From: a virus
Virus record (IMG/VR): IMGVR_UViG_3300045240_000043
Location: 1 to 54,354 of that record
Direction: 5' to 3' (one strand)
Length of the DNA stretch: 54,354 nt
Shown piece by piece: positions 5,464 through 47,900 of the stretch. Numbering within the stretch: the stretch's first letter is position 1; each line of letters begins with the position of its first letter. Made by a program: the position numbers and the translations under genes. Below the pieces are notes generated by a model, which saw nothing but the letters and a program-made list of their open reading frames with translations, searched no databases and was not told the origin of the DNA.

Positions 5464-5694
5464 GTGCCCATCGACCCATCCTCGCCCGAGTGGCCGCGCG
5501 TCCAGGTGGCCAACCGGATCCGCCAGCAGATCCAGGCCGGGCAGCTCGGGCCGAAGCTGCCGTCGCACATGGAGCTGGCGCAGCAGATGGGCGTCGCGCC
5601 GATGACGGTCCAGAAGGCGCTGGCGATCCTGCGCGAAGAGGGACTGGTCTACTCGGTGGCGGGTCGCGGGACTTTCGTCACGCCCGCTGGCTAG
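5464..5694 (+). CDS. Short GntR-family winged-helix regulator
   Basis: 76 residues, GTG start. The whole protein is one GntR-type winged helix: VANRIRQQIQAGQLGPKLPSH, the recognition helix region MGVAPMTVQKALAILREEGLV and the wing SVAGRGTFV. It has no C-terminal effector domain, so it is far shorter than standard GntR repressors. It is divergent from the transfer-like operon and is its best candidate repressor, analogous to KorSA-type control. Confidence 0.85.
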   Translation: MPIDPSSPEWPRVQVANRIRQQIQAGQLGPKLPSHMELAQQMGVAPMTVQKALAILREEGLVYSVAGRGTFVTPAG

Positions 5695-5848: not shown

Positions 5849-5974
5849 TCACCACTCGACGTGCCAGTGCCGGAACTTCCCCCGCCGCGTTTTCCAGTAC
5901 CAGCAGAGCTTGTGCTGGTGATACCACCAGGTGCCAGTCGCAGGGTTGCGCCCTTGCAGCCGGATCACTGGCAT
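5849..5974 (-). CDS. 41-residue Trp/His/Arg-rich protein coupled to integrase
   Basis: A short gene whose ATG overlaps the integrase stop (TGATG) and is preceded by GGAGGGG. The product is strongly basic and aromatic (motifs TWWYHQHKLCWYW, RHWHVEW), rich in Trp, His, Lys and Arg. It may be a nucleic-acid-binding or excisionase-like partner of the recombinase; this is a position-based guess. An overlapping longer ORF in another frame has no start signal and was set aside. Confidence 0.5.
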   Translation of the reverse strand: MPVIRLQGRNPATGTWWYHQHKLCWYWKTRRGKFRHWHVEW

Positions 5975-7278: not shown

Positions 7279-7590
7279 TCACAGGTCGTACCAGTACTTG
7301 AGGTCTCCCTCGCTGGAAGCGGTCAGGCTGTCATAGTCGCTGCTGTGACATAGCCACTCGCCCGGCTTTACCTGGGTGTACCGGGTGCGCGATGGGTGAT
7401 CGTCAGGAACGTCAGTCCAGGCGGCGACCAGTACGGTGCCGGACGGCAGCGGGCATTCGGCCGCCTCGCCCTGATAAGCCATCCCGGCGACCTTCCGCAC
7501 CTCATCCAGTGATTCACCGTGAAGGTACTGGGCGCCAGTCAGCGTGCTCGTATCCTGCCGGGGCTTAGGCCGGTACTTCCTGATCGTCAC
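7279..7590 (-). CDS. Small early protein of unknown function
   Basis: 103 residues, GTG at 7590 behind GGAGGG supplied by repeat copy 3. Acidic and Tyr-rich towards the C-terminus (YTQVKPGEWLCHSSDYDSL, KYWYDL). No family recognised. Ends just before repeat copy 2, with the stop TGA forming the first bases of the repeat. Confidence 0.6.
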   Translation of the reverse strand: MTIRKYRPKPRQDTSTLTGAQYLHGESLDEVRKVAGMAYQGEAAECPLPSGTVLVAAWTDVPDDHPSRTRYTQVKPGEWLCHSSDYDSLTASSEGDLKYWYDL

Positions 7591-7629
7591 GACTCAGCCC
7601 TCCTCTTTCCGTTTCGGGGGTAGCGGTAC

Positions 7630-8157
7630 TCATACCAGCACCCCTTGCGCTCTCTCACTGCCCATGCTGCTGGTGCCAGGGAACAGGTCCACCATCTCGT
7701 CACCATCCTGGTAGCCAAGCCAGTCGAGCACCGCCCGGCAGACCTTCCCCGGCTTGGCGCCAACGAGGCCCTTGCGGAACGTCACCGGCGCCGACACCCA
7801 ATCCTTCGGGGTGATTCCCTCGCCGCCCTTCTCAGGGACCGGCGGATTGGCGTTCCGGCCACCGCGGTAGATGATCGGCTCCCAGGCGTAGGCCGGGCGC
7901 ACGCCCTTCTTGTAGACGCAGAACGTCTTGACCCACGGGGCGACGCGGGTGTCAGGTGGCGTCATAGGCCAGATGTCACGTAGCGACGGCATGCTCAGCG
8001 ACAGCGCCCACCCATCCGGGTACCGGGCCACGAGATGATCCACCAGCTGGCGGTGGGTGGCAAGGTCGTCCCAGCATCCCCACGGCGCATCATGACGATG
8101 GCCATAGTGCTTCCCGCACATACCGAGGTACGGCGGGTCGGCATAGGCGAAGCGCAC
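7630..8157 (-). CDS. DNA methyltransferase, motif order IV then I
   Basis: 175 residues, starting at the GTG at 8157 behind GGAAGG; the longer upstream frame overlaps the preceding gene. The catalytic motif ADPPYLG is at residues 6-12 and the SAM-binding-type motif VDLFPGTSSMG at about 156-166, the circularly permuted (beta) order of N4-cytosine/N6-adenine DNA methylases. It is short for the family, lacking most of a target recognition domain. It may protect phage DNA from restriction or modify it for regulation. A second, larger DNA methylase is at 19455. Confidence 0.75.
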   Translation of the reverse strand: MRFAYADPPYLGMCGKHYGHRHDAPWGCWDDLATHRQLVDHLVARYPDGWALSLSMPSLRDIWPMTPPDTRVAPWVKTFCVYKKGVRPAYAWEPIIYRGGRNANPPVPEKGGEGITPKDWVSAPVTFRKGLVGAKPGKVCRAVLDWLGYQDGDEMVDLFPGTSSMGSERAQGVLV

Positions 8158-9149: not shown

Positions 9150-9427
9150 TGCTTATCCATCTCATACAGGTGCCAGACCAGGCCGTCGGGGCTGCGCGGA
9201 CAGGTGCCGACCCAGCGGGCGTCATCGGGGAGCGGCTGGCCGGTGCCGAACACCTGAAATGCGCGTTTGACCTCCGGTGCTCCCTTGGTGCTCTCAGCCC
9301 AGAACTCGACGACATGACCAAGATTGCCGCTGACGGTGGCAACGGCAACCGGGCTGTGCGACAACCCGAACTCGTGCGGCTGGTCATCGAGGGGGACAAC
9401 GTAACGAAACATGCGCCGGTCATCCAT
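9146..9427 (-). CDS. DUF7352-like small protein
   Basis: 93 residues; the ATG at 9427 was chosen because AGAAGGAGGA lies just upstream. The pattern FRYVVPLDDQ, VEFWAES, FQVFGTGQPLPDD and a final VWHLYE matches a small family frequent in phages and actinobacteria (I believe DUF7352), predicted to be an all-beta protein. No known function. It is preceded by repeat copy 8. Confidence 0.65.
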   Translation of the reverse strand: MDDRRMFRYVVPLDDQPHEFGLSHSPVAVATVSGNLGHVVEFWAESTKGAPEVKRAFQVFGTGQPLPDDARWVGTCPRSPDGLVWHLYEMDKQ

Positions 9428-38621: not shown

Positions 38622-38948
38622 GTGGCCACCTATACGATCCAGAACCCGCCGCACGCCGGCGCGGCCATCGCCTACGTGTCACCCCCGGCCACCAACGACA
38701 TCGCGCCCTGCGGCTCCGGCATCAGCCTGATCGTTGTCAACCCGACGGCGAACGGGACGGTGACCGTGTCGCTGCCGTGCCTCACCGATGACGGGCTGAC
38801 CGTCGGCCCGCGGGTCGTGTCATGCGCGTCGCCGTCCACGACGCTGATCCCGCTGGTCAGCTCCGTGTACGGCACGTCGGTGGTCCTCACCTACACCGGC
38901 ACCCTGACGACCGTCCAGGTCGCCGTCATCACCTCACCCGGCACCTAG
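38622..38948 (+). CDS. Small beta protein, tandem paralogue 1
   Basis: 108 residues, GTG start. Shares a layout with the next gene: YTIQNPPHAGAAIAYVSPPATNDIAPCGSG start, then a TVTVSLPCLTDDGLTVG unit and a TVQVAVITSPGT end. The tandem pair lies just before the tail tube gene; role probably structural or decorating. Confidence 0.55.
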   Translation: MATYTIQNPPHAGAAIAYVSPPATNDIAPCGSGISLIVVNPTANGTVTVSLPCLTDDGLTVGPRVVSCASPSTTLIPLVSSVYGTSVVLTYTGTLTTVQVAVITSPGT

Positions 38949-38969: not shown

Positions 38970-39320
38970 ATGGCCGCTCAGACGTATTCGATCCAGTCGC
39001 CGTCGCATGCCCCCGCGGCGGCTATCACCGTGCAGGCACCCGGCGGCACCACCGGGGACCTCGCCCCGACCGGTTCCGGGGTCGCCCTGTTCGTGTCCAA
39101 CGGCGCCACCCCGACGACCGTCACCCTCGTCCCGCAGCCGTTCGACGGCCTCGTCGTCGGCACCAGGACGATCACGATCGCGGCGGCGTCGCAGTACCTG
39201 ATCCCGCTGCCTGCGTCGGTGTACGGCGCGGGCCTCGTCGCGGTCGGCTACGGGAACATCACGACCCTGACCGGGGCCACCGGCTTCGGTGTCGCCGTCG
39301 TCACCATCCCGGGCTCATGA
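38970..39320 (+). CDS. Small beta protein, tandem paralogue 2
   Basis: 116 residues, ATG. YSIQSPSHAPAAAITVQAPGGTTGDLAPTGSG, TTVTLVPQPFDGLVVGTRTI and VAVVTIPGS align with the preceding gene, so a local duplication. Function unknown; probable virion protein. Confidence 0.55.
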   Translation: MAAQTYSIQSPSHAPAAAITVQAPGGTTGDLAPTGSGVALFVSNGATPTTVTLVPQPFDGLVVGTRTITIAAASQYLIPLPASVYGAGLVAVGYGNITTLTGATGFGVAVVTIPGS

Positions 39321-39517: not shown

Positions 39518-39994
39518 ATGGCGGCCCCAGCTCTCACCCCTCGCGTGGGTTATTTCCCTCCGGGGACAAGGAAGTTCTACTGGGTGGCGGCCATCGCCAA
39601 CAAGAACGCGCCAACCCGCGCCGAGCTCAACGCCGGGGTGGACCTCTCAGCCGAGATCGCGGCGGCGTCCGGGTGGGCACTCGTCGCGAACATGGTCGAC
39701 ATGCCCGACCTCGGGTCGCGTTTCACCAGCCAGGTCGGCGGCCGGCTGACCTCCGGCCCGAACGACCTGACGATGTACCTGTCGGCGAACGGCGTCGACG
39801 CGCGGTCGCTGCTGCCCCGCGGCACCACCGGGTTCATCGTGACCCTCCTCGAAGGCGACAACACCGGCGGGAAGATGAACGTGTTCCCGGTGGTCGTCAC
39901 CTCCCAGGCGCCGGACATGTCGGAGAACGCCGGGCAGGCCACATGGTCGTTCGCGGTGTCCTCGCTTCCCGTGGAGAATTTGACCATCCCGTGA
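39518..39994 (+). CDS. Major tail (tube) protein
   Basis: 158 residues. RVGYFPPGTRKFYWVAAIANKNAPTRAELNAGVDLSAEIA, MPDLGSRFTSQVGGR, and PRGTTGFIVTLLEGDNTGGKMNVFPVVVTSQAPDMSENAGQATWSFAVS are strongly typical of siphophage tail tube proteins. Forms the hollow tail tube. The next gene leftward is inserted with adjacent stop codons (39994/39995). Confidence 0.8.
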   Translation: MAAPALTPRVGYFPPGTRKFYWVAAIANKNAPTRAELNAGVDLSAEIAAASGWALVANMVDMPDLGSRFTSQVGGRLTSGPNDLTMYLSANGVDARSLLPRGTTGFIVTLLEGDNTGGKMNVFPVVVTSQAPDMSENAGQATWSFAVSSLPVENLTIP

Positions 39995-40711
39995 TCACCG
40001 GCTGATTTCATCGTCTGCGAAAAGGGGGATCTGAGCTTCTGCCGCCTTCCGGCGTTCGACTGCCAGTTGCGCAGCTTCGAGGGCGTCGGCCATGCGCCGC
40101 AGACGGGCCGGATCATCGGCTGCGTTGCCGATCGCCGTATTGCAGTGCTGGCAAGCGAGACCACGGCGGCAAATCCTGCATGACCGGTGACGCGGGCAGC
40201 AAGTATGATCATGATCAACCTGGATCTCGCGTGGCGCCAGTGCCTCCAGCGTCATACCGCATAGATAGCACAAACCAGATTGCGCATCCCATATCGCCGC
40301 CCAGTCCTCCGGCCGCAATCCGTGACGGTAGGCCGTCCCGTTTATGCGGATCCTTTCGGGATTGCTCAGTGAGTATGCGCGGCTCTTAGCGATCAGCGCT
40401 TCGCGATTGCGTTCACGATACGCACGGGTTTTAGCGCGGTGTTCCTCCGGGTCGCGCTGCGCGTAACGCTGCCGGGAGCGCTCCATGACCGCTTCGCGGT
40501 TTTCCTGGTAGTACGCGACCCTCAGCGCCTTCAGCCTCTCGCGGTTACGCTGCTTGTAAGCGCGCTGATACTCAGCCGTCGCTGCTCGCTGCTCAGGTGT
40601 TGGCTGCTTCCGCTTCCGCGTCTTGCCTGAAGCGCGCTGCTGTTCTCTAATCTTCTCGCGGTTGCGCTGGTAGTACTCGCGCTGATAGGCGCGTCGCGCC
40701 TCGCTGTTCAC
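39995..40711 (-). CDS. Recombination endonuclease VII-like HNH protein
   Basis: 238 residues. The first 125 residues are Arg/Glu-rich repeats of YxRNREx (for example YYQRNREKIRE, AYKQRNRERLKA, AYRERNREALI), a long helical DNA-binding arm. The core CYLCGMTLEALAPREIQVDHDHTCCPRHRSCRICRRGLACQHCNTAIGNAADDPARLRRMADAL is endonuclease VII-like. This family resolves branched DNA in T4; free-standing versions often behave as mobile nucleases. Last gene of the leftward cassette with the Imm-like and RHH genes. Confidence 0.85.
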   Translation of the reverse strand: MNSEARRAYQREYYQRNREKIREQQRASGKTRKRKQPTPEQRAATAEYQRAYKQRNRERLKALRVAYYQENREAVMERSRQRYAQRDPEEHRAKTRAYRERNREALIAKSRAYSLSNPERIRINGTAYRHGLRPEDWAAIWDAQSGLCYLCGMTLEALAPREIQVDHDHTCCPRHRSCRICRRGLACQHCNTAIGNAADDPARLRRMADALEAAQLAVERRKAAEAQIPLFADDEISR

Positions 40712-40869
40712 CGGCCGATCTCCTGCGGATCCTCATGGTCGGCGCGGAACCTGGCGAGGGCTTCGGCGAGGATCGCGTTGACGGCGCGGCCGGTGCGCTG
40801 CGCGTAGGCCAGTAGCCATAGCCGGTCAGGCTCGGGCGGCCGGAACCCGATGGGGTTGTACTTCTGCAC
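40708..40869 (-). CDS. Ribbon-helix-helix-like protein
   Basis: 53 residues from the GTG at 40869, just after the Imm-like gene's stop. KYNPIGFRPPEPDRLWLLAYAQRTGRAVNAILAEALARFRADHED fits an RHH/CopG layout (strand, then two helices). It is a candidate autoregulator binding the palindromes at 41140-41174. Its ATGA overlap ties it to the endonuclease VII gene. Confidence 0.65.
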   Translation of the reverse strand: MQKYNPIGFRPPEPDRLWLLAYAQRTGRAVNAILAEALARFRADHEDPQEIGR

Positions 40870-40870
40870 G

Positions 40871-41122
40871 TTAGGCAACGGGGTGCTCCCGTGCCGGGAT
40901 GTCCGCAGAGCGGCACGCCATCGCGAGCGCGACGATCCAGCCAATGACCGTCCAGCCGAGCAGGCCATTGATGACGGCAACGGAACCGATATTGCGGACG
41001 CGGCGCATTCTCGCAATGAGCAGCGGAGTCCAATACGCGGCGATGACGATGAGCCACAGGATGATTCCTCCGATGGTGTCGCCGGCGCCGTTGCCGGCGG
41101 TTGCGATCAGGTGCTGGTGCAT
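40871..41122 (-). CDS. T4 Imm-like superinfection immunity membrane protein
   Basis: 83 residues behind AAAAGGAA. Two transmembrane helices (IGGIILWLIVIAAYWTPLLIARM and VAVINGLLGWTVIGWIVALAMA) separated by a basic loop match the Imm_superinfect family, in which T4 Imm blocks DNA entry of related phages. First gene of the leftward cassette. If expressed in the lysogen, it could exclude other phages. Confidence 0.78.
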   Translation of the reverse strand: MHQHLIATAGNGAGDTIGGIILWLIVIAAYWTPLLIARMRRVRNIGSVAVINGLLGWTVIGWIVALAMACRSADIPAREHPVA

Positions 41123-41139
41123 GGGATTCCTTTTCTCTC

Positions 41140-41174
41140 GGTTGTGCTACAACCGTACGGGTTGTAGCACAACC
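41140..41174. promoter_or_regulatory. Nested palindrome operator upstream of Imm-like gene
   Basis: GGTTGTGCTACAACC (41140-41154) and GGTTGTAGCACAACC (41160-41174) are reverse complements separated by GTACG, and each is itself a GGTTGT-n3-ACAACC inverted repeat. It begins 17 bases upstream of the Imm-like start and 22 bases before the rightward gene at 41196. It probably binds the RHH protein twice; it could also act as a hairpin terminator. Confidence 0.7.
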
Positions 41175-41195
41175 TTGTCAACCGGGGAGATACCG

Positions 41196-41681
41196 ATGCC
41201 TGCACCGTCACGCCGCGCCAAGAGCACCATCCTGCCCTTCAATGGCCCGTGGACAGGTCCCGCGCTGTCTGATGCGGCGCTGCTGATCGCCCGCGTCGCG
41301 AAGGCAAGCTCGGCGCGGTGGTCCCGTCGTGTCCCGCTGTCCGTGCGCGTCAGTTCCAGCGTCACCACCGGCACGGCGAAGAGGGTCACCATCACCGCCG
41401 GGGGCCGTGCAGCACCTCAGGCATATGTCATGGAAGGACGCAACTCCGGCGCCCCGATCGCTCACCCGGTGTTCGGCCACGGCGAGCGGCTCCGCGGCAC
41501 GGCCGTCGGCAAAAAGAAAAACGGCAAGCTGCGCTACGAGCCTCCCGGCTGGACCTGGGCGCGCCAGATTCCCGTGCGCCCGTTCATGGCGCAGGCCGCC
41601 GAAGCGGCGGCAGGCAGCGCCGCCGACGAGTTCGCCAACCGCATGATCACCGAGTGGGCCAGGGCCAGCGGCTTCAGATAG
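41196..41681 (+). CDS. Minor tail/head-tail component
   Basis: 161 residues, ATG at 41196. RVSSSVTTGTAKRVTITAGGRAAPQAYVMEGRNSGAPIAHPVFGHGERLRGTAVG and RPFMAQAAEAAAGSAADEFANRMITEWARASGF resemble small tail or head-tail joining proteins found between tail tube and chaperone genes. The first tail gene after the leftward cassette. Confidence 0.5.
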   Translation: MPAPSRRAKSTILPFNGPWTGPALSDAALLIARVAKASSARWSRRVPLSVRVSSSVTTGTAKRVTITAGGRAAPQAYVMEGRNSGAPIAHPVFGHGERLRGTAVGKKKNGKLRYEPPGWTWARQIPVRPFMAQAAEAAAGSAADEFANRMITEWARASGFR

Positions 41682-42113: not shown

Positions 42114-44165
42114 GTGTCGCTCGTTAAGACCGTGTCTGTCCAGGTCAACGGGATCGTCGCTGACGCCACCGCGAAGATCGGCTCCGTCACCGCGCAGGTG
42201 CAAGGGCTGCTGGACCGCTCGCCGGTCGAGGTGAAGGTCGACGCCAAAACGGAGGATGCGCAGCGGAAGCTGGCTGCGCTTGACGTGAACGCGGAGCGGC
42301 TGAAGAAGGCGTTCCCCGAGTTCGCGGTGAAACTCGACACCGGCCTGGCGACGGCGAAGCTGACGGCGCTGCGCGCGGAGATCCGCAAGACCGCGGAGAC
42401 GGGCGGCGGCGCGGGCGCGGCCGGGGGGGCTAGCGGCGGCTTCCTCGGCCTGCTCGGCCCGCTGGGAGCGCTCTTCTCGGGCGGCTCGGGGATCGCGATC
42501 GGCATCGCCGCACTGACCCCGGTCATCGCAGCGCTCGGCACTGTCTCGCTGGCCGCCGGCGCGGGCATCGCCGGGTTCGGGGCGCTCGCCCTGCCGACGT
42601 TCCTGAAGATCTCCACGGCCCTGTCCAAGATCAGCAAGGATCAGCAGGCGGTGACGCAGGCGACGACCCACGGGGCAAAGACGGCCGCGCTCGCAACGCT
42701 GAAAGCCGACTACGCCAGCCTGCCGGCGCCTATCGCCACGGCGGTGAAGGCCGTCCAGGGCCTTGAGACGGCGTTCGGGAAGCTCGCGAAGGCGTTCCAG
42801 CCGGAGGCGCTGAAGATGCTGGGCATCGGCCTGAAGATCGCCGGGGACGCGATGGGGCCGCTGGCGGTGATCGCGAAGACCGCGGCGCCGTTCGTCGACG
42901 CGATCGCGAAGAGCATCGGCGTCACGCTGGTGAAGTCGCTGAAGCTGCTGGAGCCGCAGATCAAGCCCGCGATGGGCGCGTTCGTGCCGCTACTCGGGTC
43001 CATCTCGAAACTGTTCCTGGTGCTGCTGGCGTCCCTGCTGAAGAACATCCCGACCTGGGTGAAGCTCACGAACGCGATCATTGCCCTGATCAACGCGACG
43101 ACGCCGCTGATCCCCTACCTGGTCGATTTCATCGCCGAGATGGGCCGCGTCGAGGTCGTCGTCATCAGGGCCGTCGCGTGGTTCCTTACCCGGCTGCCGA
43201 ACGCGATCAAGGCCACCATCCACTGGATAGCGAACGCCATCGACAAGTTCCGCGAGGTCGTCGTCCAGATCGGGCAGGCGGTCAACGCGATCGGCGCCAG
43301 CATCACCCAGATGGTCCTCGACGTGGGATCCGGCATCGGGAAGGTCGTCTCGTTCTTCACCCACCTGCCGGGCCGGATCGCATCCGCGCTGTCCGGGCTC
43401 GGCACGCTGCTGTACAACATCGGCAAGCACGCCGTCCAGATGATCATTAACGGGATGCTGTCGCTGTGGCACAAGCTGACGGGCCTGTTTGACCGCATCA
43501 AGGGCTTCCTCGGGTTCGGCGGCGGCGGCGGGGGCGTGCCGGGCGGGAAGCTGCCGAACGTCAACGTGGGGCTCGGTTCCGGTTCCGCGAACGCCAGCCT
43601 CGCCCGGCAGATGATGCCGTCGTGGGGCACGGGCGCGAACTGGGCCGCGTGGAACTACGTCGGGCAGCGCGAGTCCGGGTGGAACTCCACCATCCAGAAC
43701 GCGGCGTCCGGCGCGCTGGGCATCGCCCAGGCCCTCGGCCACGGCGTGGCGGGCGGCGGCGGCTCGCTCGGCAACGAGTACGGCGGCTACGGGCTGTCGA
43801 CGGCCGGCGACCGGCTGGCCAACTCCGGCGTCCCGCAACCGCAGATCTCGTGGATGGTCAACTACATCCGCAGCAAGTACGGCGGCCCGCAGCAGGCCGC
43901 CGCGCATGAGCGGGCGTTCAACTGGTACGACCGCGGCGGCTTCATCCCCACGGGCGCGTCGGTGGCCATCAACAACACCGGCGCCCCAGAGCGGGTGCTG
44001 TCCGGTTCGCAGGAGATGGCCATCGTGTCGCTGCTGCGTGACATCCGGGACATCCTGCGGCAGTCCCCGTCAGCGACGGGCACGGCGATGGCCCGCGGAC
44101 TGCAGGGCACCGCCCGCCGCGCCGGTGCACGCGGCATGTACTCGGCACGCGGGCCGTGGGCCTGA
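42114..44165 (+). CDS. Tape measure protein with lytic-transglycosylase-like domain
   Basis: 683 residues, GTG. N-terminal chaperone-binding and helical region, several hydrophobic helices (about 105-165 and 290-360), then at about 500-600 an SLT-like domain (AWNYVGQRESGWNSTIQNAASGALGIAQALGHG; RESGW has the catalytic Glu; WMVNYIRSKYGGPQQA ends it). The tail ends GGFIPTGASVAINNTGAPERVLSG, typical of actinophage tape measures. At 683 residues it is short, predicting a tail near 100 nm. The antisense HNH gene overlaps its 3' end. Confidence 0.9.
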   Translation: MSLVKTVSVQVNGIVADATAKIGSVTAQVQGLLDRSPVEVKVDAKTEDAQRKLAALDVNAERLKKAFPEFAVKLDTGLATAKLTALRAEIRKTAETGGGAGAAGGASGGFLGLLGPLGALFSGGSGIAIGIAALTPVIAALGTVSLAAGAGIAGFGALALPTFLKISTALSKISKDQQAVTQATTHGAKTAALATLKADYASLPAPIATAVKAVQGLETAFGKLAKAFQPEALKMLGIGLKIAGDAMGPLAVIAKTAAPFVDAIAKSIGVTLVKSLKLLEPQIKPAMGAFVPLLGSISKLFLVLLASLLKNIPTWVKLTNAIIALINATTPLIPYLVDFIAEMGRVEVVVIRAVAWFLTRLPNAIKATIHWIANAIDKFREVVVQIGQAVNAIGASITQMVLDVGSGIGKVVSFFTHLPGRIASALSGLGTLLYNIGKHAVQMIINGMLSLWHKLTGLFDRIKGFLGFGGGGGGVPGGKLPNVNVGLGSGSANASLARQMMPSWGTGANWAAWNYVGQRESGWNSTIQNAASGALGIAQALGHGVAGGGGSLGNEYGGYGLSTAGDRLANSGVPQPQISWMVNYIRSKYGGPQQAAAHERAFNWYDRGGFIPTGASVAINNTGAPERVLSGSQEMAIVSLLRDIRDILRQSPSATGTAMARGLQGTARRAGARGMYSARGPWA

Positions 44166-44896
44166 TGGCGTCCGACAGCGGGAGGGTCGCGCCAGATCTC
44201 GCGTCGCACGATCTTCGATACGACTGGCTGACTGATGCCGAACTCACGCGCAAGCGGTCGCTGCTGTTCGCCAGCCGCCGCACGACGCCGGATCTCGCCG
44301 ACGTCTGCCCAGGTGACCTTCGCGGCCCAGTGCCGTTCACCGGCCACCCAGGTACGCGGGCGCACTTCCGTGCCATCTGCGAGATGAGCCCACTTCTTCC
44401 CGTTGACGGCTTCGCAGATCGCAGACTGCGTTACGCCGTATTCGCGTGCGAGCGCGGTCTGAGTCTCGCCATCTGCGTACCGCCGCTTGCAATCCGCGAC
44501 GATCTCGGCTGTCAGCTTCGCCGACCCGCATCGCTCACCACGAGGGGCAGTACCGTCCCGCACCATGTCGGCCATGTTCTGCAGCCGCGTGCCGTAACTC
44601 AGGTTGACGAGCCGGTTATCCATTGCCCGGCCAGGTCCGTGCAAAGACTCCATGCCCGGCGGACACGGACCAACGAAAGCCTCCAGCACGAGCTGATGCA
44701 CGAGACGGCTCTTGGCTTTCCGCTCCCGGTAAAGAGCAACGGTCAGGTGCCCGGCGCTCAGGCCAGGAGCCAGTACGCCGCCTCGTTTGCCGCTCCCGCG
44801 ACCAGCGTGGAAACTGCGCACGCGGCCGAGATCACTGACCTCGTACAAGCCTTCATAGCCCGCGATAGGAAGCCATCGCTCAGTAGGGTCATCCAT
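43862..44896 (-). CDS. NUMOD4-HNH endonuclease with antisense C-terminal extension
   Basis: 344 residues as an ORF, ATG at 44896. Residues 7-30 are NUMOD4 (RWLPIAGYEGLYEVSDLGRVRSF); HNH-like core at 60-100 (LVHQLVLEAFVGPCPPGMESLHGPGRAMDNRLVNLSYGT). Two HTH repeats follow (LTAEIVADCKRRYADGETQTALAREYGVTQSAICEAVNG and VTWADVGEIRRRAAAGEQQRPLAREFGISQPVVSKIVRREIW). The natural end should be near 44170, as in the HNH at 50309, but no stop occurs and the frame runs 300 bases antisense into the tape measure gene. Inserted directly after it. Confidence 0.75.
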   Translation of the reverse strand: MDDPTERWLPIAGYEGLYEVSDLGRVRSFHAGRGSGKRGGVLAPGLSAGHLTVALYRERKAKSRLVHQLVLEAFVGPCPPGMESLHGPGRAMDNRLVNLSYGTRLQNMADMVRDGTAPRGERCGSAKLTAEIVADCKRRYADGETQTALAREYGVTQSAICEAVNGKKWAHLADGTEVRPRTWVAGERHWAAKVTWADVGEIRRRAAAGEQQRPLAREFGISQPVVSKIVRREIWRDPPAVGRHQAHGPRAEYMPRAPARRAVPCSPRAIAVPVADGDCRRMSRMSRSSDTMAISCEPDSTRSGAPVLLMATDAPVGMKPPRSYQLNARSCAAACCGPPYLLRM

Positions 44897-44983: not shown

Positions 44984-47900
44984 ATGTCGGCGGACTCTTT
45001 GGTGGTGGCAGGACAAATCGAGCTGCTGGGCGGTCCCGGCGGCGTCCAGAACACGAACCCGCTGTGCGTCAACGCCGCCGGTGTCGGCGCGATCTTCCGG
45101 CTGCAGCCCGGCTACGACCTGGGCGCGGCGCAGCCCACCACCGACTTCATCGGCTCCCTCGCGCTGGACGGGGAGCGGCCGTTCGGGCGCCGCGCATCCG
45201 ACCGCACCATCACGCTGCCGATCCAGATCGTGGCCCCGGATTTCACGACGCAGGCGGGGGCGCTGGAGCTGCTGTCGCAGGCGATCGATCAGCAGACGTG
45301 GACGCTGACGTGGACGCGTGACCCGTCGCAGGCGTCCGCGGGCGGCCTGGGCGTCGCGCTGCCGCTGGTGCTGGACTGCTTCCGCGCGCAGGCGTCGGCG
45401 CTCACGTACGGCGGCGTCGACCAGACCCTCGGGCTTCCCATCGGCGCGATCACGATCACGTTCCAGGCCCTCCCCTACGGGCATTCCGATCAGCCGGTGT
45501 CGATCGCGGTCGCGTCCCCTCTGCCGGGCGGCGTGACACCCCCGGCACCTATCGTCCTCGACACCTTCTCGTCGGTGTCGGGGACGAATTTCTCGCAGGA
45601 CACGCAGCACATCGTCGGTCCGCATTCGGCGAAGTGGTCGCAGTCGGGGCCGACGAACGCGCCGAACTACCAGGCGAGTTTCGCGGCGACGGACCTGTCG
45701 GCCATGAGCGTGCTGTCGGTGTGGGTCGGGGTGGGGGCGAATTTCCCGGCGACGTTCATGAATCCGTGCACGGTGCAGTTCATCCTGGGTGACAACGCGG
45801 GGAAGCTGCTGTCGTTCTCCGTGTCGCGGCACCTGACCCCGAGCGGGAACGCGTCGGTGCCGAACTGGCAGCTCATCAGCGCGGCGATCCCGCAGGGCCG
45901 CGCCTTCAGCTACACGCACGTCATCAGCTACTTCGTCTCGGTGTTCAACACGCCGAACGACGGCTTCGGGTACAACACGTGGTACGACCACGTGGCCGCG
46001 AACCCGCCGTCGGTGCAGACGGCGACCACCCGCGGTGCGGTGTACAACATCCTGGGCGTCGCGGGGACCGCGCGGGCGCCGCTGTCGCTGCAGGCACAGC
46101 AGCCGGGGATCACCAAGACGGTCACGCTCAACACGCCGGGGCCGTTCCAGTGGACCGCGCCGGCCGGGCTGACGGGCGGCACGGCGTCGGTGACCGCGGT
46201 CGGCGGCGGCGGCGCGGGCGCTTCGCTGGTGCTGGCCGGGGAGGGCGGCGGCGGGTCCGGCGCCGAGGTCGCGCAGGAGCCGCTGCTGGGCCTCACGCCG
46301 GGCACCGTGTACAGCGGTGTCATCGGCGCCGGGGGGACCCCGCAGACGGGGATCTCGACGCTGGCGATCACGACGACGGGGCTGCCGACGGCGACCGTGT
46401 CCAGCGTGTACTCGGCGACGCTGACGGCCACCGGCGGCACCCCGGCCTACACGTGGTCGCACACGACGGGCGTCATCCCGACCGGGCTGTCGCTGAGCTC
46501 GGGCGGCGTTATCTCCGGGACGCCCAGCGGGTCGGCGGTGTCGCCGTCGCTGGGGTTCACCGTCACCGACAGCCTGGGCGCGACCGCGACCGTCGTGCTG
46601 GTGCTGCGCGTGGTGGTCGCGGCGACGTTCGCGATCACGACCACCACGGCGCCGGCCGGGAATGTCGGCGGCCGGTACTCCCTGACGATGACCACGAACG
46701 GCGTCGGCACCGCGCCGCTCACCTGGTCGATCTCGGCCGGGACGCTGCCGCCGGGGCTGACGCTCGGCACCAGCTCCGGGATCATCTCCGGGATCCCCAC
46801 GGCGGCGGGCAACTCGACGTTCACGGTCATGGTCGCCGACTCGTCCGGCACCGTCAAGACCGACACCCAGGCCCTGACCATCGTCATCACGGCCGTGTCC
46901 ACGTCGACGCTGCCGATCTTCGGGATCAACTCCGGGGCCGCGTGGCCGCCCGCATCGTACGACGACGTGTACACGGCGATGCAGATCGGCGGCCAGGCTG
47001 TCTGCTTCCGGTTCCAGGGCGGTAAGGGCTCCGGCCCGGGCGGGTTCCCGAACAAGTGGAACGACCCGGGCTCGCGGGGCGCGAAGATCCCGGCGAACGC
47101 CACGGTGGTGCTGGGTGACTGGGAGCAGTTCGACATCCCGGGGCTGCTGGCGGGGAACTACGACGCCGGGATCAAGACGTTCGCGCTGTCCTGCCAGGCG
47201 CAGTGGAACAAGAACCCCGGGTCGATCATCATCTCGATGTGGCATGAGGCCGATCACCTATCCGCCGGGAACCCGACCCCGGCGCAGGTCCGCGGGCTGC
47301 ACGCCTACTTCTACCCGCGGTTCAAGCAGTGGGCGCCGTCGGTGCCGTACGGGCAGACGTTCTCCCGGGACGCGGTGGTCGCGAACCCGTCCGGGTGGGT
47401 GTCGTGCAAGAAGACGATCGCCGGCGGGTCGGACCTTGACTATTACGGCGTCGACGGCTATGCGCACGGGCGGACGGCGGCGGCGGTGTTCAACCCGGCG
47501 TTCGCGGCGATCCGCTCCCAGGTCCCGAACGCGGTACTCGCCATCCCGGAGCTGAACTGCGAGGTGCAGGGCGCGACGCGGGTGCAGTGGTTCAACGACG
47601 CGTGGGCGATCGCGATCGGCGCCCAGTACGGGCCGCTGCTGCTGTTCCAGCCGTTCTGGATGGGCGAGTCGAACGGGCAGGTGATCTGCTGGCTGCCCGG
47701 CGACACGAACACGATTAACGCGCTGCGGTCGATCGTGAACCAGGCGGCGCCGGCGGGGTCGGTGCAGATCGGCGGCGACCCTCCCGCCGTCAACGGCGGC
47801 ACCACCAGCTTCACCGGCGACTCGGTGACCGTCACCGCCGCCGGGGGCCTGTCGGCGACGTCGATCACCGGCGCCGCGACGAACGCGGTGTCGACGAACA

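Follow-up and report, generated by a model that had tools for sequence, protein, structure and literature searches.

Arc and Mnt of phage P22 are RHH repressors of their own accessory operon, which lies beside the superinfection-exclusion gene sieA, and the cargo regulated by them is the antirepressor ant. In acr-aca operons a small variable cargo gene comes first and the gene of the autorepressor Aca last, together with one or two inverted repeats of which one lies in the core promoter (PMC9410906). All of the regulators Aca1-10 are HTH proteins (PMC9410906). The P22 gene order sieA-orf59a-mnt is named elsewhere (PMC10883804). Superinfection immunity proteins of the family PF14373 comprise T4 Imm and representatives in many Mycobacterium and Gordonia phages. 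In two annotated regions, those of Gordonia phage Nebulosus and Mycobacterium phage Bxb1, the Imm genes are located among early or middle genes without the regulator described here. The locus described here carries an Imm-like gene whose product has the size and membrane plan of this family but which, unlike the genes of Nebulosus and Bxb1, lies antisense in a tail operon.

The window, that is the whole stretch of 54,354 nucleotides analysed, is the virus record IMGVR_UViG_3300045240_000043 of a soil phage. Terminase, portal and tail genes as well as an ERF protein and a tyrosine integrase are encoded, and for this reason the phage is probably temperate. The tail-tube gene and the tail gene that follows it are separated by three tightly coupled leftward open reading frames (ORFs), which are antisense to both and come in the order Imm-like gene, RHH gene and endonuclease VII-type gene (Table 1); the coordinates of the ORFs agree with the original prediction. 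The RHH start overlaps the Imm stop by 8 nt, the GTG start of the endonuclease gene overlaps the TGA stop of the RHH gene, and the endonuclease stop abuts the stop of the tail-tube gene. The gene on the right equals the gp10-like genes of related phages in place and size, with marginal sequence similarity. An assembly error is unlikely because a second contig, L004, contains the complete cassette at 99.98% identity (5,231/5,232 bases). Further upstream in the tail region, the genes 38622-38948 and 38970-39320 are tandem duplicates with about 44% identity.

Table 1 Features of the cassette in the window and cargo genes of the related loci
Feature	Coordinates	Strand	Basis
Tail tube protein, left flank	39518..39994	+	PF25595
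Endonuclease VII-type protein, 238 aa, charged N-terminal repeats	39995..40711	-	PF02945; PHROG endonuclease VII
Small RHH regulator, 56 aa from TTG 40878 (alternative start GTG 40869)	40708..40878	-	fold matches; relatives at operator loci
Cargo, Imm-like superinfection immunity protein, 83 aa, two membrane segments	40871..41122	-	PF14373, PHROG, hydropathy
Operator 2 (predicted), GGTTGTGCTACAACC on + strand	41140..41154		exact palindrome; centre 20 bp from operator 1
-10 element TACGGT (TANNNT), 18 bp from -35	41152..41157	-	sequence; TANNNT recurrence in double-site matches
Operator 1 (predicted), GGTTGTAGCACAACC on + strand, in -35/-10 spacer	41160..41174		exact palindrome
-35 element TTGACA	41176..41181	-	sequence; position relative to palindromes matches seven other loci
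Next tail gene, right flank, gp10/neck-like by position	41196..41681	+	weak PHROG matches
Cargo G302, zinc-ribbon, resembles Lar restriction alleviation			Pfam E 1.6e-4, below cut-off; PHROG 0.0093
Cargo G001 57 aa, G303 136 aa, G306 66 aa, L087 ~155 aa			no clear family
Cargo second G306 locus and L090			related CECGQ proteins

Read leftward, the control region consists of TTGACA, an 18-bp spacer which holds operator 1, the hexamer TACGGT overlapping operator 2, a ribosome binding site (RBS) and the ATG of the Imm-like gene. The two GGTTGT-N3-ACAACC palindromes described before are indeed exact and reverse complements of each other. They overlap the promoter itself, which corrects the earlier description: operator 1, with the TKGT-N3-ACMA core common to the other loci, separates the two hexamers, and operator 2 covers the -10 element and the likely transcription start. 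A sigma-70 scan missed this promoter because TACGGT fits TATAAT at only three of six positions. Apart from this pair, the 54 kb of the window contain no perfect inverted repeat that has arms of 15 bp and a spacer of at most 10, and when up to two mismatches are permitted, a single further palindrome is found, at 9352. A lone TKGTNNNACMA site (TGGTGATACCA, 5916-5926) is situated between the integrase gene and the adjoining gene of a 76-aa mini-GntR protein (5464-5694, plus strand), which lacks an effector domain and is a candidate phage regulator.

The product of the first gene was identified as an Imm-like membrane protein, and this holds: it matches Pfam PF14373 (Imm_superinfect, cut-off 27.9 bits) with 44.7 bits and E 1.2e-11, the PHROG assignment is immunity to superinfection, and hydrophobic segments are present at about residues 17-38 and 45-70. 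As PF14373 is broad, it is family membership that points to exclusion, and the protein is a predicted superinfection-exclusion protein. Its closest other relative (54%) is encoded on contig L006 (4950-5240), on the same strand as a gene related to the endonuclease VII gene of the window (44%; 7434-8051) and about 2.2 kb away from it.

For the RHH gene, TTG 40878 is the most likely start in place of GTG 40869: it is preceded by an RBS (GGGAG) 7 nt upstream, the protein then aligns better with the relatives, and the 8-nt overlap with the Imm stop results, as in G306. The protein has no match in Pfam or PHROG. The strand-helix-helix fold of the RHH class can be recognised in the predicted model, an AlphaFold monomer of moderate confidence in which two helices of the right length follow a low-confidence N-terminus and the N-terminal strand is unresolved. 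Nearly all of the 50 fold matches listed from the PDB are RHH proteins with Arc in first place, at weak E-values (best 0.45), in agreement with the class proposed before. A PDB sequence search gave nothing convincing, that is, no detectable similarity to solved RHH proteins. Among catalogued phages and plasmids no relatives were found except one weak match on a Sphingopyxis plasmid, and about 790 actinobacterial genomes yielded two weak matches, one of which (L172) looks like a mazEF-type antitoxin locus. The sole match of a genome-contig scan appears spurious, as it lies inside an apparent purine nucleoside phosphorylase gene.

Seven contigs, from about four lineages, possess a related tail-tube gene (~50% identity) without the cassette. 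Their tail-tube gene and the following gp10-like gene, paired with the window gene by position and size, are separated by a few bases, compared with 1,201 bp in the window. The GC content of the cassette is 63% against 70% in the flanks, which places it among the lowest 0.5% of the 1.2-kb stretches of the window. Comparison with the relatives, the antisense orientation and the GC content thus support the view that the locus is a moron-like accessory cassette. The proposal of a defence-type moron stands in this part; the nuclease as a member of a defence unit does not, as in no other RHH module was one seen within the operon. PADLOC gave no convincing defence-system match. A second antisense insert occurs in the same tail region, namely a NUMOD4/HNH-like homing endonuclease frame (44206-44896, minus strand, by sequence pattern) between the tape-measure gene, which ends at 44165, and a gene starting at 44984; a double operator is lacking there.

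The order of operators, one small variable cargo gene and an RHH gene was found at eight loci in seven phage records, which are the window and six uncultured phages (G001, G302, G303, G306 with two loci, L087 and L090). The RHH protein led to three of them, namely those in the window and in G001 and the first one in G306. The remaining five were reached by the DNA pattern alone, and at all of them an RHH-type gene is the second of the operon; inspection of L087 and L090 gave the same order as elsewhere. At the second G306 locus and in L090 this second protein matches the profile weakly (E 0.009 and 0.06, respectively) and is called RHH by sequence pattern. Of the seven loci outside the window, a rough gene call shows six, all but G001, to be opposite in orientation to one or more adjacent genes; some of them lie beside a terminase gene.

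The scans of IMG/VR covered TTGAC followed by two TGGT-N3-ACCA or two TTGT-N3-ACAA palindromes, with no -10 element imposed, and returned 33 distinct matches. TANNNT is present at 16-18 bp in 12 of them, compared with a background of 4.4% (tail 9e-9, an approximate value since the background figure ignores the bases fixed by the pattern). An RBS and a start within 45 nt follow in 11 of these 12, to which the window and G001 belong; contigs of phages that are not related share this promoter class. When a single GTTGT-N3-ACAAC site was used as control, with TANNNT imposed, 53 stretches were obtained, almost none of them promoter-like except the window cassette; the pair of sites is therefore informative. 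Operator 1 is located between -35 and -10 at all eight loci, in one case with a mismatch, its centre 6-8 bp after the -35 element; the -10 element stands at 17 or 18 bp, and the centre of operator 2 is 20-25 bp from that of operator 1. At three loci the three-base cores mirror each other, at three they are identical in direct orientation and at two they differ. Mirror-image nesting, as noted before, is therefore one of several arrangements and was rejected as a functional feature, and a long RNA stem is not the common function of these elements.

That the RHH protein belongs to the operator is suggested by a single-sequence search of 17 records: matches were found in the operator records G001, G302, G303 and G306 and in none of six controls, whereas six short or AT-rich operator records remained unmatched. 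The matches are located just downstream of the operators and within their operon. The relative in G001 is 63% identical to the window protein over the matched part, and its promoter, TTGACG TGTGGTCCTACCACGCGG TAGTGT GGTAGGACCAC, is of the same kind as that of the window with another half-site. The first G306 RHH gene has an operator pair of its own, one site with a mismatch, in addition to the pair that the scan had returned. When the RHH profile was run against 15,407 translated segments from the collected loci, no strong match beyond the known ones was obtained; the profile consists of six sequences, which match by construction.

Several other observations were made in the collected records. 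In the G303 module the C-terminal tail of the RHH protein (L168, 1261-1515) resembles by eye the end of an HNH endonuclease (HKDGDPRNNNPANLE). The AT-rich L096 (1892-2165) has a double-operator promoter directly before an RHH-type gene, and a Bro-N/antirepressor-like gene comes next (by eye). Double-site promoters are also present in the AT-rich L099 (reverse strand 4545), where scaffold- and capsid-like genes follow (by eye), and L102 (reverse strand 959). The contigs L081 and L093, AT-rich as well, are too short for a decision on an RHH gene.

We consider it rather probable that the RHH protein binds the palindrome pair and represses its own cargo operon within the moron-like cassette, the cargo being the Imm-like exclusion protein. 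The promoter with its two TKGTNNNACMA palindromes would drive the cargo gene, then the repressor gene and then the endonuclease VII-type gene. RHH dimers would occupy the palindrome in the -35/-10 spacer and the one over -10/+1, which are separated by about two helical turns, and would thereby exclude RNA polymerase. The cargo could thus be made in a burst while the repressor is absent, for example upon entry into a new cell, or it could be held at a low set level in the lysogen; Imm, located in the membrane, would then hinder a second phage from bringing in its DNA. The anatomy, the family assignments, the recurrent order behind the operators and the lack of the cassette in relatives of the tail locus are observed; binding, suggested by the co-occurrence of protein and operator, is inferred, as are repression, timing and exclusion. 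Some findings speak against such repression: the RHH proteins that are 59-63% identical to the window protein face the half-site GTGGT instead of GGTTGT, the profile match of the RHH protein is weak at two of the eight loci, the AT-rich L099 and L102 combine a promoter of this type with first genes among which there is no RHH gene, and the operator core fits another class of regulators as well.

This class is formed by the FadR-type GntR proteins, of the host or in the form of the mini-GntR of the phage, which might bind the palindromes while the RHH protein does something else. Among the alternatives for binding it is the main one because TKGT-N3-ACMA is the published consensus of the FadR subfamily (PMC4494728), and the mini-GntR matches PF00392 (E 2.3e-16). 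However, co-occurrence in these records does not clearly point to a GntR binder. It is the RHH gene that follows the operator; GntR genes were found in G000, G303 and G306 but also in the controls G004 and G313, and were not found in G001 and G302; all records are fragments in which absence weighs little, and a GntR protein of the host might take this role. Furthermore, the stretch immediately before the mini-GntR gene contains no TKGTNNNACMA site, and a two-site TGGT pattern, somewhat stricter than that of the scans, occurs in 0/296 genomes of one actinobacterial class, by which a host origin of the promoter class was rejected too. Binding by a GntR protein is unlikely. RHH antitoxins also autorepress via palindromes in their own promoters, and the first two genes form a pair with overlapping ends, as in a toxin-antitoxin operon with the Imm-like protein as toxin and the RHH protein as autoregulating antitoxin. 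The family of the partner gene differs from locus to locus, however, none matches a toxin family, and an RHH protein of only 56 aa with a short tail has no room for a long toxin-binding segment, so that we regard this as quite improbable. Even less credible is a role of the long inverted repeat as an RNA hairpin which sets the expression of gene 41196 in the rightward tail message. The rightward RNA of the palindrome region does fold with -33.7 kcal/mol (z -5.7) into a 15-bp stem just upstream of the 41196 start, but a U-tract is missing and no terminator is predicted there; at other loci the element stands before the cargo gene, and the three direct-repeat cores give no perfect long stem.

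A further alternative concerns the third gene, whose endonuclease VII-type assignment proved sound: PF02945 is matched with 56.3 bits against a cut-off of 23.6, and the zinc cysteines CxxC, DHDH and the distal CxxCN (Asn) line up with T4 endonuclease VII. The cassette might be a homing element whose endonuclease cleaves the DNA of phages without the cassette where tail-tube and gp10 genes are joined, with Imm and RHH as passengers, a reading compatible with the regulation by RHH preferred above. The motifs are intact, the insert lies between conserved genes, and relatives without it exist. In addition, F-CphI is a known homing enzyme with an Endo VII motif (PMC6083498); in both cases the catalytic motif resides in a free-standing phage gene, the window gene differing by the lack of an intron and by long charged N-terminal repeats. 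On the other hand, the empty site is known only in distant relatives (~50% identity), so the exact insertion point cannot be drawn, RHH modules at other loci move without an endonuclease gene, and the enzyme may equally be a junction resolvase. Homing is therefore doubtful. Since an endonuclease gene directly after the RHH gene was seen in none of the other RHH modules, it is probably a co-transcribed addition and not part of the conserved module; perhaps it is what brought or keeps the cassette here.

With acr-aca operons the eight loci share an operon in which a conserved regulator gene stands after a small gene that varies and, with one mismatch at one locus, the inverted repeat inside the core promoter. 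In contrast to Aca1-10, the regulator is predicted to have the RHH fold, and the window cargo is Imm-like. The cassette is not filed as acr-aca because the predicted fold of the regulator is not HTH and no CRISPR inhibition is known. By analogy, the Arc/Mnt region of P22 beside sieA is the nearest RHH counterpart, and Arc is the top fold match of the window protein; the operator differs in that two odd-length palindromes lie 20 bp apart. No description of an RHH-type cassette of such kind was found in the open-access literature.

Taken by its recurring order, operator-cargo-RHH appears to represent a family of exchangeable accessory cassettes that is as yet uncharacterised, and the hosts of the phages concerned are probably actinobacterial, judging from GC content and relatives. 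It is possible, though we hold it with reserve, that the RHH family and the double TKGTNNNACMA promoter mark dispersed conflict-gene cassettes in actinobacterial phages, with cargo for anti-defence or superinfection functions. Two of seven cargo types lean to phage-host conflict, Imm_superinfect clearly and the Lar-like protein below the cut-off. If this is true, operator and RHH gene would be usable as bait for new genes with such functions, as Aca is for anti-CRISPRs, and the RHH fold would join the protein kinds used for acr-aca-like autorepression. A short DNA pattern together with a 50-aa protein profile would then flag mostly unannotated accessory genes in uncultured, probably actinobacterial phages.
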